A program made the position numbers and the translations under genes. This document shows, one piece after another, positions 13,971-19,690 of a stretch of DNA of 64,000 bases. Under the pieces are notes generated by a model that saw only the letters and a list, made by a program, of their open reading frames with translations, was not told the origin of the DNA and searched no databases. The first letter of the stretch is position 1, and the number at the start of each line of letters is the position of its first letter. The DNA lies in the NCBI GenBank assembly GCA_007121455.1, contig SKKN01000004.1:1-64000 (forward strand), written 5' to 3'. Source of the stretch: Gemmatimonadota bacterium. GTDB lineage: Bacteria; Gemmatimonadota; Gemmatimonadetes; Longimicrobiales; Gaopeijiaceae.

Positions 13971-14774
13971 TCACGTTCGCGGGACGACCCTCACGACGAT
14001 CTCTGGAAGCCCCTCGATGCGGCCTTCCATGATGTCGCCCGGCACGACCGGCCCCACGTTTTCGGGGGTGCCCGAGTAGATGATGTCACCCGGGCGAAGC
14101 TCGGAGCTCCGGGACAGGTTGCTCACCTGCTCGGCGACGTTCCAGATCATCTGTTCCAGATTCGCCTCCTGCTTCGTCTCCCCATTCACCTGGAGTCGGA
14201 TCGACCCCTCCGTCAGGTGACCGACGAGCTCCGCGGGATGGATCGGGCCCAATGGGGCGGAGTGGTCGAAACTCTTCCCGATCTCCCAGGGTTTGCTCTC
14301 GTCCCCCATCGCACGCTGAAGGTCCCGCCGGGTCATGTCGAGGCCCACCGCATAGCCGAACACGCACTCGAGCGCTTCCTCGGGAGCGATGTCGCGTCCC
14401 CCACGATGCAACGCCGCAACGAGCTCGATCTCGTAGTGGTAGTTCTCGGTGAGGGGAGGATACACGTGGTCGGCCGTCTCACCGGGCATCACGATCTGGA
14501 CCGCGTCCGTGGCCTTCTGGAAGAAGAAGGGGGGCTCCCGGTCGGGGTCGGAGCCCATTTCGATCGCGTGCGCGGCGTAGTTCCGACCGATACAGTAGAT
14601 TCGTCGCACGGGAAAGAGATCGTCGGAATCGACGATTGGGATCGTGGTTCGAGGAACCGCGAAGAGGGTGTGGGCGTCGTCGTCCGCCGACGCCGAGCGC
14701 GCGCAGCCCGCGACCCCGCCGGCCGCGAGAACGCCCGCAGCCTTCAACATCGTACGGCGGTTCATCGTGTTCAT
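13971..14774 (-). CDS. Fumarylacetoacetate hydrolase (FAH) family protein with export leader
   Basis: 267 residues. The leader MNTMNRRTMLKAAGVLAAGGVAG ending in CARS carries a twin-arginine-like start and a possible lipobox, unusual because FAH enzymes are normally cytoplasmic. The catalytic domain shows IYCIGRNYAAHAIEMG, PFFFQKATDAV, the metal-binding YHYEIELVAALHRGG (E-x-E type) and PGDIIYSGTPENVGPVVPGD. Family members cleave C-C bonds of acyl-pyruvates or isomerise or decarboxylate homologous 2-oxo acids. GGAGG lies five bases before the ATG at 14774; another in-frame ATG lies at 14765. Divergent from the NosR-like gene. Confidence 0.88.
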   Translation of the reverse strand: MNTMNRRTMLKAAGVLAAGGVAGCARSASADDDAHTLFAVPRTTIPIVDSDDLFPVRRIYCIGRNYAAHAIEMGSDPDREPPFFFQKATDAVQIVMPGETADHVYPPLTENYHYEIELVAALHRGGRDIAPEEALECVFGYAVGLDMTRRDLQRAMGDESKPWEIGKSFDHSAPLGPIHPAELVGHLTEGSIRLQVNGETKQEANLEQMIWNVAEQVSNLSRSSELRPGDIIYSGTPENVGPVVPGDIMEGRIEGLPEIVVRVVPRT

Positions 14775-14998
14775 CGTGCCTCCCATTCGCAATGCTCCCC
14801 AACACGTACGGTAGGAACCCGGATCCCACACGGCAAGATCATTCCGTACCCCGGGATGGGGATCGGAGCAGGCGCGGTGCCGGTAGGAGGAGAAGACCGA
14901 CGTGGCGAGATGCCTCCGATCTGGCGATGATCAGGTGTGCCGGAATCCGACCTGGGATCGACTCCGGCATCTTCCACGTCCAAGTGCGAGGAGGGCGA

Positions 14999-17248
14999 TT
15001 GAACCGTAGAACCACCCGCCCTGACACGGTACTGCCTCGGTCCGTAGGCGCAGCCGCTGTCGCTTGGAGCGTCCTTCTGCTCGTACTCTTCGTCGGTCCC
15101 CCGGCTCTGAGCGACCTGGAGGCGCAGAGCCGAAGTCCGGTCCCCCCGGAACAGCTCGAGCGCGTCATGCCGGACGCCGACCGATTCTCGGAGTTGGACG
15201 GGGATCCGCCGGTCATACGGGCCTATCGGGCCGGCCCCTCCGGGGAAGAGGACCTCCTCGTCGGATATGTCTTCCTCACCTCGGATTGGCCCCCGCAGGT
15301 GATGGGCTACGACGCCCCGATCGACGTGCTCGTGGGGATGGACCTGGAAGGCACGCTGACCGGCATCAGCGTCGCGCGGCACCGCGAGTCTCTACAGCGG
15401 ACGCGCGGCGACTTCCTGTCCACGCGCGGCTATCAGGAACAGTACGCCGGAAAGCACATCACCGACCCGTTCCGTGTCCGGCGTGACGTGGACAACATCT
15501 CCGGGGCGACGATCTCGGTAGAGGCGATGGCGCTCGGCATCCGGAATGCCGCTCGGCGCGTCGCGTCCACCCACCTGACCGCGGGAGCCCCCTCTTCGGA
15601 CGAAGCCGACCGTGCTCCCCTCACCGTCGAGGAGTTCGCAGAGCTGAACTGGCTCGACCTGCTGAACCGTGGGCCCGTCGCCCGTCTCCCCGTCCTGGAT
15701 GGGGGGATCGTCCGGCTCGAGATCTTCCTTCTCCACCTCTGGGACGAAGAGGTGAGCGAGCTCCTCCTCGGACCCGAACGCTACGACGAGGCCCGGGAGG
15801 AAGCGGGGGAGCGCCTGGAGGAGAGAGAGGCCCTCTTTCTCGGAGTCGACGGCTCCACGATCCGCTTTCGGCCCTACATGCTCTTCCTCGCTCAGGACGG
15901 GGACACCCTTTCCGTGTCGAACGACGACCTGATCCTCTTTCCCGAGCCGAGGACGGGGATGGTCGCCGACCAGCTCCGGACCGCAGGACTCTGGCTCGTG
16001 GATGGGCCGTTCGATCCGTCACGTCCCTTCACGGTGCTCTTCGGAGGGGAACTCGGAATGGACGTGTTCACCGTCGAGGTTCCCGGCCGGCCTGCGCCCG
16101 CTGTCGTCGCAGAGGCGAGCCCGGCTGACGCGGAGGCGGTGGTGGAGTTGGACGAAGGTCCGGAGGGGGAGCCGGACGAACCGGACGAGCCGGAGGGAGG
16201 AAGCGCAACGGAGGACGACGAGCCGGAGCCGAGGCCGGAAGAAGCAGCTACGGTCGAGGAACCGCTGGAAGGAGCGAGCGAAGCGGAGGCCCCTGAGGAG
16301 GAGCTCGAGGGTGGGGCCGGAGCCGACGCGAGGAGCGCGGCTCCCCCTCCAGGCCTCCCCGACTTCGACCTCGACGCCGGGGCCCTCTACGAGATCGAAG
16401 AGGAGAGCCAGCTCGCCCGCACCCTGGCGCGGACCTCGTGGGCCCGTGTGGGCGGCCTGCTCGCCCTCCTGATCCTCGCCTCCGTGGCGTTCGCCACCAA
16501 GGCGACGCCGCTCCGGTGGGTCACCCTCACCGCCACCTTCCTCTACCTGGGGTTCATGCACGGCGGATTCCTCTCGGTCTCGCACATCACGAGCGGCATC
16601 GCCGTGGGTCCGGGCGTCTACCTGAACGATCTTTCGCTCCTCGCGATCGTGCTATTCACCCTCGTGACCACACTTCTCTGGGGTCGCATCTTCTGTGGCT
16701 ACCTCTGCCCATTCGGCGCATTGCAGGATCTGCTCGATCGGATCGTGCCCGACAGGTTTCGGCGCCGAATGCCTCCCTGGATCCACGACCGCGCGCTCTG
16801 GGTGAAATACCTGGTTCTCCTCATCGTCCTGGCCCCGGCCGTCGCAGGGATCCACGTCAGCCTCTATCAGTACTTCGAGCCCTTCGGGACGGTCTTCTTT
16901 CTGAGTCCATCGATCCTGCTGTGGGCGATCGCCCTCGGGTTCGTCCTCGCTTCCGCGGTCGTTCCCAGGTTCTATTGCCGATACGCCTGCCCGCTCGGAG
17001 CGGCGCTCGGCGTGGTCTCGCGCGTCTCCCCCTTCCGGATTCGGCGGGTCGAGCAATGCACGCACTGCAAGGTGTGCGAGCAAAGCTGCCCTACCGGGGC
17101 GATCCGTGGAGCCGTGGTCGACTTTCCGGAATGCGTTCGCTGCAGCGTCTGCGAGGTGAACCTCATCGAGCGAGCGGGAAGCTGCCGCCACGAAATGGAA
17201 ACGATCCGCCCCCGCCTCGTCCAACTCCAACAGCGCGCCGGATCATGA
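14999..17248 (+). CDS. NosR/RnfG-like membrane protein: FMN-binding domain, acidic linker, polyferredoxin
   Basis: 749 residues from a TTG preceded by GAGGAGGG. An N-terminal membrane segment (about 12-40) leads to a periplasmic FMN_bind domain holding D-N-I-S-G-A-T, an exact match to the ApbE target D-x-x-(S/T)-G-A-T; Thr171 would carry covalent FMN. A second periplasmic region follows, then a strongly acidic linker (about 375-450). The C-terminal third has about six helices with CGYLCPFGALQDLLDR and CRYACPLGAALG, the NapH/NosR pattern, and ends in CTHCKVCEQSCPTG plus a second Cys cluster, indicating two 4Fe-4S centres. NosR passes electrons toward periplasmic N2O reductase, but no nosZ is nearby. 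An earlier in-frame ATG (14927) lacks a ribosome site. ApbE follows after 19 bases. Confidence 0.87.
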   Translation: MNRRTTRPDTVLPRSVGAAAVAWSVLLLVLFVGPPALSDLEAQSRSPVPPEQLERVMPDADRFSELDGDPPVIRAYRAGPSGEEDLLVGYVFLTSDWPPQVMGYDAPIDVLVGMDLEGTLTGISVARHRESLQRTRGDFLSTRGYQEQYAGKHITDPFRVRRDVDNISGATISVEAMALGIRNAARRVASTHLTAGAPSSDEADRAPLTVEEFAELNWLDLLNRGPVARLPVLDGGIVRLEIFLLHLWDEEVSELLLGPERYDEAREEAGERLEEREALFLGVDGSTIRFRPYMLFLAQDGDTLSVSNDDLILFPEPRTGMVADQLRTAGLWLVDGPFDPSRPFTVLFGGELGMDVFTVEVPGRPAPAVVAEASPADAEAVVELDEGPEGEPDEPDEPEGGSATEDDEPEPRPEEAATVEEPLEGASEAEAPEEELEGGAGADARSAAPPPGLPDFDLDAGALYEIEEESQLARTLARTSWARVGGLLALLILASVAFATKATPLRWVTLTATFLYLGFMHGGFLSVSHITSGIAVGPGVYLNDLSLLAIVLFTLVTTLLWGRIFCGYLCPFGALQDLLDRIVPDRFRRRMPPWIHDRALWVKYLVLLIVLAPAVAGIHVSLYQYFEPFGTVFFLSPSILLWAIALGFVLASAVVPRFYCRYACPLGAALGVVSRVSPFRIRRVEQCTHCKVCEQSCPTGAIRGAVVDFPECVRCSVCEVNLIERAGSCRHEMETIRPRLVQLQQRAGS

Positions 17249-17267
17249 ACTCGAAAGGAACGGACGG

Positions 17268-18302
17268 ATGAACCAGAATGGCGAACGGAGGATGTCGCGC
17301 CGGGAGGCGCTGAAGATCACGGCCGTGACGGGCGTCTCCCTCGCCATCGGAGGAAGTGTCCTGGCCGGCCTCGTGCAGCGGGGCAGGCTGCATCGAGTGG
17401 CGGTCCGGGACATACGGATGGGAACCCTCGTCCACATCACCGTCGTGCACCCGGATCCGTCGGCGGCCCGCGAGATGGTCGACGCCGCTTTCGCCGAGAT
17501 GGAACGTCTCGAGGCGATCTTGAGTCGCCACCGGCCGGACACCGCCGTGTCGCGACTCAACCGTGAGGGTTCACTCCGCAGCGCGCCCCTGGAGCTGAGC
17601 AGGCTCGTTCGACTCGCGGGCGAGTACTCCGAGGCGACCGAGGGCGCATTCGACATCACCGTCGCCCCGGTGCTCCACCTGTACGCCTCGAGCTTCGAGA
17701 ACACGGGACAGCCTCCGAGCGATGCGGAGCTGAACCACGCACGCGAGCTCGTGGGTCACCATTCCCTCCGCGCCGTCGAATCCGATCTTCTGTTCGACGA
17801 GCCGGGTATGGCCGTCACGCTGGATGGGATCGCGAAGGGGTTCATCGTCGACCGTGCGGTGGAGCGCCTCGTGGCGGCCGGCGCCGATCGCGTGATGGTA
17901 GACGCCGGTGGCGATATGGCCTCGAGGGGAACTTCCGCTCCGGGCGAGCCGTGGAGCGTCGGGATCCAGGACCCCTGGGACGGACGCGGACGCCTGGGAT
18001 CGCTCCACCTGCGGAGTCAGGGGATTGGGAGCTCGGGGGATTACGTGCACCGATTCAGCGAGGACCGGCGCTTCCACCACATCATCGACCCACGCACAGG
18101 GAAGTCCCCCGATCACACCAGCGCCGTGACCGTCGTCGCCTCCACCGCCGTCGAGGCGGATGCTCTCTCCACCGCAGCGCTGGTGCTGGGACCCGAGGAG
18201 GGCATTGCTCTGCTGGAGGCGCGCGAGGGCATCGAAGGGCTGCTCGTGACGAAGGACCGGACGGAGATCCGCACCCGTGGGTTCGCGACGACCCTTACGT
18301 GA
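17268..18302 (+). CDS. apbE: FAD:protein FMN transferase
   Basis: 344 residues. ApbE moves FMN from FAD to a threonine of a target protein, with magnesium as cofactor. The N-terminus (SRREALKITAVTG followed by a hydrophobic helix) is an export or anchor signal with a twin-arginine look, as expected for a periplasmic enzyme. Family motifs are MGTLVHITV, ILSRHRPDTAVSRLNREG, GAFDITVAPV, TLDGIAKGFIVDRAVE, MVDAGGDMASRG and HHIIDPRTGKSPDHTSAVTV. It lies 19 bases after the FMN-binding NosR-like gene, whose D-x-x-S-G-A-T site is the obvious substrate, so the two very likely form an operon. Confidence 0.96.
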   Translation: MNQNGERRMSRREALKITAVTGVSLAIGGSVLAGLVQRGRLHRVAVRDIRMGTLVHITVVHPDPSAAREMVDAAFAEMERLEAILSRHRPDTAVSRLNREGSLRSAPLELSRLVRLAGEYSEATEGAFDITVAPVLHLYASSFENTGQPPSDAELNHARELVGHHSLRAVESDLLFDEPGMAVTLDGIAKGFIVDRAVERLVAAGADRVMVDAGGDMASRGTSAPGEPWSVGIQDPWDGRGRLGSLHLRSQGIGSSGDYVHRFSEDRRFHHIIDPRTGKSPDHTSAVTVVASTAVEADALSTAALVLGPEEGIALLEAREGIEGLLVTKDRTEIRTRGFATTLT

Positions 18303-18865: not shown

Positions 18866-19690
18866 TTGATCCGTCACCTCGACCTGGGTCCACGTGAGGG
18901 CAGGCCGATCGTGCTCCTCCACGGCTTCACAGGGTCGGCCGCGGCGTGGCGCTCCCTCGTGGTCGCGGCCCTCACCCGGCGCCGACGGCTCCTCCTCGTC
19001 GACCTGCCGGGCCACGGAAAGTCCGGCCTTCGGCCGGGATCACCCGGCGGGTGGTCCATGGAGCGCACGGCAGACGAACTCACCCGGCTCCTCGATCGGC
19101 TGAACATCGAGCGCGCCGACTGGATCGGCTACTCCATGGGAGGGCGGGTCGTGCTCGCCGTGGCAGTGCTCCAGCCTGCAAGGATCCGGCGACTCGTCCT
19201 CGAAAGCGCCTCCCCGGGGCTCCGAACCACCCGGGAGCGCTTGATCCGCCTGAAGAAGGACCACGACCTCGCGAGGGAGATCCGGGCGCGCGGAATGGAA
19301 TGGTTCGTCAGCTTCTGGCTGGACCAGCCCCTCTTCGCGACGCAGAAGGCGCTTCCCGTGGCCGTGCAGGAGGAGAGCCGCAGGCAGCGACTGCTCAACT
19401 CCCCCGCCGCCCTCGACAAGGCGCTCAGGACGTTGGGCGCAGGTGCCCAGCCTTCGTTCTGGGATGACCTGGCTGGGGTCACGGCGCCGACGCTCCTCCT
19501 CACCGGCGACCAGGACGAGAAGTTCGAGTCGATCGCCAGGGAAATGCGGCGAGCGCTGCCGAATGCGCGTCACCGCTCGGTACGAGGAGCCGGCCATGCA
19601 GTCCACCTCGAGGCTCCCAGGGAGTGGATCGGGGCGGTCGTGCCCTTCCTCGAAGCCCCGGATCCCGCATCGCCCTCGGAGCAGCGCTGA
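18866..19690 (+). CDS. Alpha/beta hydrolase, MenH-like
   Basis: 274 residues from a TTG five bases... after AGGAG. It carries IVLLHGFTGSAAAWR, LLLVDLPGHGKSG, the nucleophile Ser90 in GYSMGGRV, the acid in LLTGDQDEKF and the histidine in VRGAGHAVHLEAP. The cap region (LKKDHDLAREIRARGMEWFVSFWLDQPLFATQ) closely follows MenH, which removes pyruvate from SEPHCHC to give SHCHC in menaquinone synthesis. No other men gene is in the window, so a related carboxylesterase role cannot be excluded. Neighbours are ExoD (convergent) and the 3D protein (divergent). Confidence 0.8.
   Translation: MIRHLDLGPREGRPIVLLHGFTGSAAAWRSLVVAALTRRRRLLLVDLPGHGKSGLRPGSPGGWSMERTADELTRLLDRLNIERADWIGYSMGGRVVLAVAVLQPARIRRLVLESASPGLRTTRERLIRLKKDHDLAREIRARGMEWFVSFWLDQPLFATQKALPVAVQEESRRQRLLNSPAALDKALRTLGAGAQPSFWDDLAGVTAPTLLLTGDQDEKFESIAREMRRALPNARHRSVRGAGHAVHLEAPREWIGAVVPFLEAPDPASPSEQR

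Follow-up and report, generated by a model that had tools for sequence, protein, structure and literature searches.

The window analysed here, the whole stretch of 64,000 nucleotides from the genome of a Gemmatimonadota bacterium, contains a pair of adjacent genes coding for a NosR-like membrane protein and for the flavin transferase ApbE. The pair has the following features:

14999-17248, + strand: NosR-like flavin and iron-sulfur membrane protein, 749 aa, TTG start (open reading frame, Shine-Dalgarno sequence, Pfam, partial NosR model, relatives)
15305-15553, + strand: FMN_bind domain with flavinylation motif DNISGAT, predicted acceptor T171 at 15509-15511 (PF04205 match, RnfG fold)
15611-16093, + strand: second periplasmic domain, about residues 205-365, common to nos-cluster NosR (alignment with four NosR, model pLDDT)
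16094-16408, + strand: acidic linker, 36% D/E and 2% K/R, disordered in the model (composition, model)
16439-16966, + strand: membrane part, predicted to have five helices, containing the first CX3CP motif, C566-C570 (Fer4_5 match at 16631-16765, model)
16967-17245, + strand: second CX3CP motif, C660-C664, and 2x4Fe-4S ferredoxin-like tail, predicted to be cytoplasmic (Fer4_5 and Fer4 matches, invariant Cys)
17268-18302, + strand: ApbE, FAD:protein FMN transferase, with Tat-type signal (PF02424, 1e-74; closest PDB entry 5mgy)

Both genes are in frame at the coordinates that an earlier note on this DNA had given them. An AGGAGG sequence lies about 5 nt upstream of the TTG start at 14999, the NosR-like protein begins with a signal sequence, and apbE follows directly, as that note had it, after a gap of 19 bp. 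The Pfam matches of the NosR-like protein are FMN_bind (PF04205, 1.4e-9), two copies of Fer4_5 (PF12801, 1.5e-20) and Fer4 (PF00037). The N-terminal periplasmic flavin domain already proposed for it is borne out by the first of these matches and by the RnfG fold retrieved from the PDB in a Foldseek search with the model, and the ApbE target motif is indeed present at T171, in its canonical form. The NapH/NosR-type cysteine motifs and the two 4Fe-4S sites are there too: C566-x3-C570P, C660-x3-C664P, C687/690/693/697P and C712/715/718/729 are shared without exception by 27 relatives, the last eight cysteines forming the motifs for two 4Fe-4S clusters.

The AlphaFold2 model (mean pLDDT 73) shows two periplasmic domains, the FMN domain and one rich in beta strands, besides a linker that is disordered and a membrane part of five helices. 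The second periplasmic domain is absent from the description in the earlier note and has pLDDT values mostly between 80 and 95; it found no match in the structure search of the PDB, in which RnfG alone was matched, via the FMN part. The other Foldseek matches were immunoglobulin-type noise (E above 0.01) and were rejected. The acidic linker, present as first described and 104 aa long in the window protein, measures 66-187 aa in Gemmatimonadota, while the homologues from Gammaproteobacteria and the NosR of nos clusters have about 13-31 aa; in its long form it is, among the sequences compared, a trait confined to Gemmatimonadota members, which refines the original observation.

Among solved structures in the PDB, the one nearest to the window's ApbE is 5mgy, which we take to be the P. 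stutzeri ApbE that matures NosR. The catalytic triad of ApbE (Ser, His and Asp; PMC12052999) appears to be kept in SSGDY, HHIIDP and ADALS, but the window's enzyme adjoins a target that does not belong to a nos cluster and has a Tat-type signal. Targeted searches of the host genome (3.53 Mb, 95.6% complete, with masked stretches and a missing 4% that could hide genes) recovered a single ApbE, a single FMN_bind domain and a single Fer4_5 protein, so that this ApbE has one obvious target. Since the NosR-like protein is the sole FMN_bind protein found in the genome, the arrangement is not that of Rnf or Nqr, with their separate RnfG/NqrC and RnfD/NqrB. In the window flanks no nos gene (nosDFYL included), rnf gene or nqr gene adjoins the pair, in agreement with the earlier note, and the flanking genes for a fumarylacetoacetate-hydrolase-family protein, a 3D-domain protein and a MenH homologue are not conserved beside homologues. 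The first of these (13971-14831, - strand) is divergent from the NosR-like gene and carries a Tat-like signal, unusual in a family that is normally cytoplasmic. The MenH-type gene (18866-19690; TIGR03695 over cut-off), 560 bp past apbE, is a hint of menaquinone synthesis.

Homologues of the NosR-like protein occur in 30 of 58 genomes of the host family and are rare outside it, the named relatives coming from Gemmatimonadota (Longimicrobiales, BD2-11) and marine Gammaproteobacteria such as Pseudohongiella. A search of their neighbourhoods, which the earlier note had proposed, singled out apbE as the conserved neighbour, adjoining the gene in most relatives. Within the host family, ApbE is found in 29/30 genomes with the NosR-like protein vs 13/27 without it (p=3.5e-5). 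An open frame of 24,438 aa in relative G029 was rejected as an artefact of masked N.

The same architecture is found in true NosR, and the protein could in principle be one, serving an N2O reductase whose gene lies elsewhere or is missing from the assembly. It aligns end to end with four nos-cluster NosR proteins (C. necator pHG1, Shinella, Labrenzia, Eleftheria), with which it shares the FMN domain with SGAT, the second periplasmic domain, both CX3CP motifs and the Cys-rich 4Fe-4S tail, and clade II nosZ is present in some genomes of the host family. The NCBIfam NosR model is matched as well, but in its C-terminal part only (8.5e-50), at 169.7 bits against an equivalog cut-off of 1000. Identity to nos-cluster NosR is about 30%, the linker is 104 aa vs 13-30 in those four proteins, nosZDFYL are lacking nearby, and in the phylogenetic tree nos-cluster NosR falls outside a 68-member subfamily containing the window protein, a split with 100% support. 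The search for a nosZ elsewhere in the genome, suggested when the pair was first noticed, found no NosZ over cut-off in the 95.6% complete assembly, only cupredoxin-like fragments. Furthermore, nosZ occurs in 1/30 host-family genomes with the protein vs 12/28 without it (p=3e-4 by genome, p=0.15 by genus). A true NosR is therefore extremely unlikely; given the absence of NosZ from the host's matches, the separate clade and the near-exclusion of nosZ among relatives, there is good support for a conduit role outside N2O reduction.

The earlier note held this gene arrangement to be undescribed. This is not so: the class has been known since 2021, when Meheust et al. (PMC8238504) surveyed 'NapH-like' flavinylated systems and counted 1,926 gene clusters with a fused N-terminal FMN domain, the majority of them without a known reaction. 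In these systems a PF12801 iron-sulfur protein of the membrane carries a fused FMN_bind domain; apbE or FMN_bind genes share the cluster, and in most cases no known oxidoreductase does. The window's pair is a further member: PF12801 is present with five model helices, FMN_bind is fused to it, apbE is in the cluster, and the motif [S/T]GA[S/T], from which covalent FMN is predicted, is present as DNISGAT. What sets it apart is the long acidic linker and its host, Gemmatimonadota being unnamed in the main text of that survey. PceC/RdhC of organohalide respiration, whose topology and FMN site have been demonstrated (PMC5928378), shares with the window protein the exocytoplasmic covalent FMN domain (predicted in the latter), the membrane helices and two CX3CP motifs; PceC lacks 4Fe-4S motifs at its C-terminus, and its outer domain is shorter than that of NosR (PMC5928378), whereas the window protein has two invariant 4Fe-4S motifs.

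As regards class and general mechanism, and leaving the partner aside, it thus seems quite likely that the pair consists of a flavinylated NapH-like transmembrane electron carrier, related to NosR and PceC, and the maturase dedicated to it. Since the genome yielded a single ApbE with a single flavinylation target and no N2O reductase, it would be a clear example of the stand-alone type. By analogy with the known relatives, from which we infer covalent FMN, topology and electron flow, ApbE would be exported, take FAD and link FMN as a phosphoester to T171 in the periplasmic domain. Electrons would then pass between this FMN and the CX3CP/4Fe-4S centres on the cytoplasmic side via the five-helix membrane part, and the quinone pool, through putative quinone binding, or a cytoplasmic ferredoxin/Fe-S pool may in this way be coupled to a redox enzyme of the periplasm whose gene lies elsewhere in the genome.

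NosR and NirI were originally taken for regulators, on the basis of genetics, and the NosR model is still termed a transcriptional regulator by NCBIfam, so that a redox-sensing regulator could be considered instead of an electron carrier. This is very improbable, as the protein has no DNA-binding domain, no regulator was recognised adjoining it, all cofactor ligands are strictly conserved, and a redox role of the family has been argued (PMC5928378).

For the electron carrier, the presumed direction of flow depends on its partner. Those known for NapH-like systems are nosZ, pceA, nirS (133 genomes) and exaA-type PQQ alcohol oxidases (172 genomes; PMC8238504). In the host genome, NosZ is joined as a missing partner by full cytochrome cd1/NirS, of which only 80-residue propeller fragments were found, and by reductive dehalogenase, with zero matches in a search that had no positive control; the NosR-like protein therefore stands without a known terminal partner in its host. 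The same class of protein may nevertheless work outward, taking electrons from quinol or ferredoxin and passing them to some periplasmic reductase (of nitrite, organohalides, metals or thiols), the direction assumed for characterised NosR and PceC (PMC5928378, PMC8238504) and one consistent with low-potential cofactors. No recurrent reductase gene lies beside the NosR-like gene in the neighbourhoods examined, which, together with the NirS and dehalogenase results, leaves outward flow a serious contender at somewhat below even chances.

The one partner signal that did emerge concerns PQQ-dependent dehydrogenases. Grouping by genus being the only correction for kinship in these statistics, host-family genomes with the NosR-like protein have a median of 7.5 PQQ-dehydrogenase-like genes vs 2 without it (p=4e-4; p=0.006 at genus level), and a PQQ dehydrogenase lies within 6 kb of the NosR-like gene in 6/19 genera vs 1.2 expected from copy number (P=4e-4). 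The raw count, with PQQ dehydrogenases at 28 of 80 loci, was dropped as evidence and replaced by this copy-number-corrected test, because genomes hold 13-53 copies each: such numbers of matches were found in all 26 genomes, mostly gammaproteobacterial, reached via loci of the named-genome collection, and up to 53 per genome occur in Gemmatimonadota and Pseudohongiella-like Gammaproteobacteria. Arrangements vary, the dehydrogenase gene lying directly behind apbE in relative G051 and adjacent but divergent in G010. Relative G027, with zero PQQ dehydrogenases, counts against such a partner. As for the window itself, the host has one PQQ dehydrogenase, a full PF01011 protein on another contig, so that the link is indirect, drawn from neighbourhoods and copy numbers in relatives. 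Literature searches, on NosR-type proteins together with PQQ dehydrogenases and on PQQ in Pseudohongiella, returned nothing pertinent.

The PQQ/PQQH2 couple has a potential of about +90 mV. This lies above that of free FMN (-205 mV, quoted in PMC5928378), so that electrons could reach the flavin only if the flavin's potential were raised. Periplasmic PQQ-dependent dehydrogenases taken on their own are the leading candidate partner, unproven and put forward tentatively; otherwise the partner would be some other reductase or oxidase. The signal, if real, gives a widespread class of orphans a partner that can be put to the test, and it would favour the direction opposite to that from cytoplasm to periplasm. 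Of the transmembrane conduit proposed in the earlier note, the conduit itself stands, as one not serving N2O reductase, while the outward direction would be at odds with the sole partner signal if that is real; the extracellular acceptor also envisaged there finds no support in the analysis. Very large sets of PQQ dehydrogenases, with 13-53 matches in genomes of 1.6-4.5 Mb, are a feature of the genomes of L101-L154 and of relatives G003, G019, G038 and G049.

The canonical motif of the window protein is the less common state among its relatives. The glycine position of S-G-A-T is occupied by G in 24 of 72 aligned proteins and by R, Q or N in the other 48, the state having changed three to four times along the tree; among loci L042-L068 and L101-L154, the variants read S-R-A-T, S-R-V-S, S-Q-V-S or similar at the positions aligned to residues 168-171, whereas the homologue of the isolate Pseudohongiella nitratireducens (L151) has SGAT. 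Mutagenesis cited in PMC12052999 found flavinylation reduced to about half by Gly-to-Ala and Ala-to-Val changes in the motif, and arginine at the glycine position is absent from that review. Among variant-motif relatives apbE still adjoins in most Gemmatimonadota members, and G011, G040, G044 and G051 (R/Q-type) each have a single, adjacent ApbE and no FMN_bind protein other than the NosR-like one. If the S-R-A-T variants with their dedicated ApbE are flavinylated, the accepted recognition motif would have to be widened. The fullest reading would make the subfamily the missing electron acceptor of heme-free periplasmic PQQ-dependent dehydrogenases (electrons passing from PQQ dehydrogenase via covalent FMN and Fe-S to quinone), with ApbE acting on a non-canonical S-R-A-[T/S], glycine replaced by arginine, in most relatives; we regard this combination as speculative and rather unlikely.

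Two arrangements of the pair in relatives may be added. Contig C5 of G019 carries two NosR-like/apbE pairs (L043 and L068) about 26 kb apart, which fall on different branches of the tree. At L078, L080, L112, L113 and L115, all from one Gemmatimonadota group (the BD2-11 clade and relatives), the pair is flanked by genes for a P-type metal ATPase on one side and a LutB-like iron-sulfur protein on the other.
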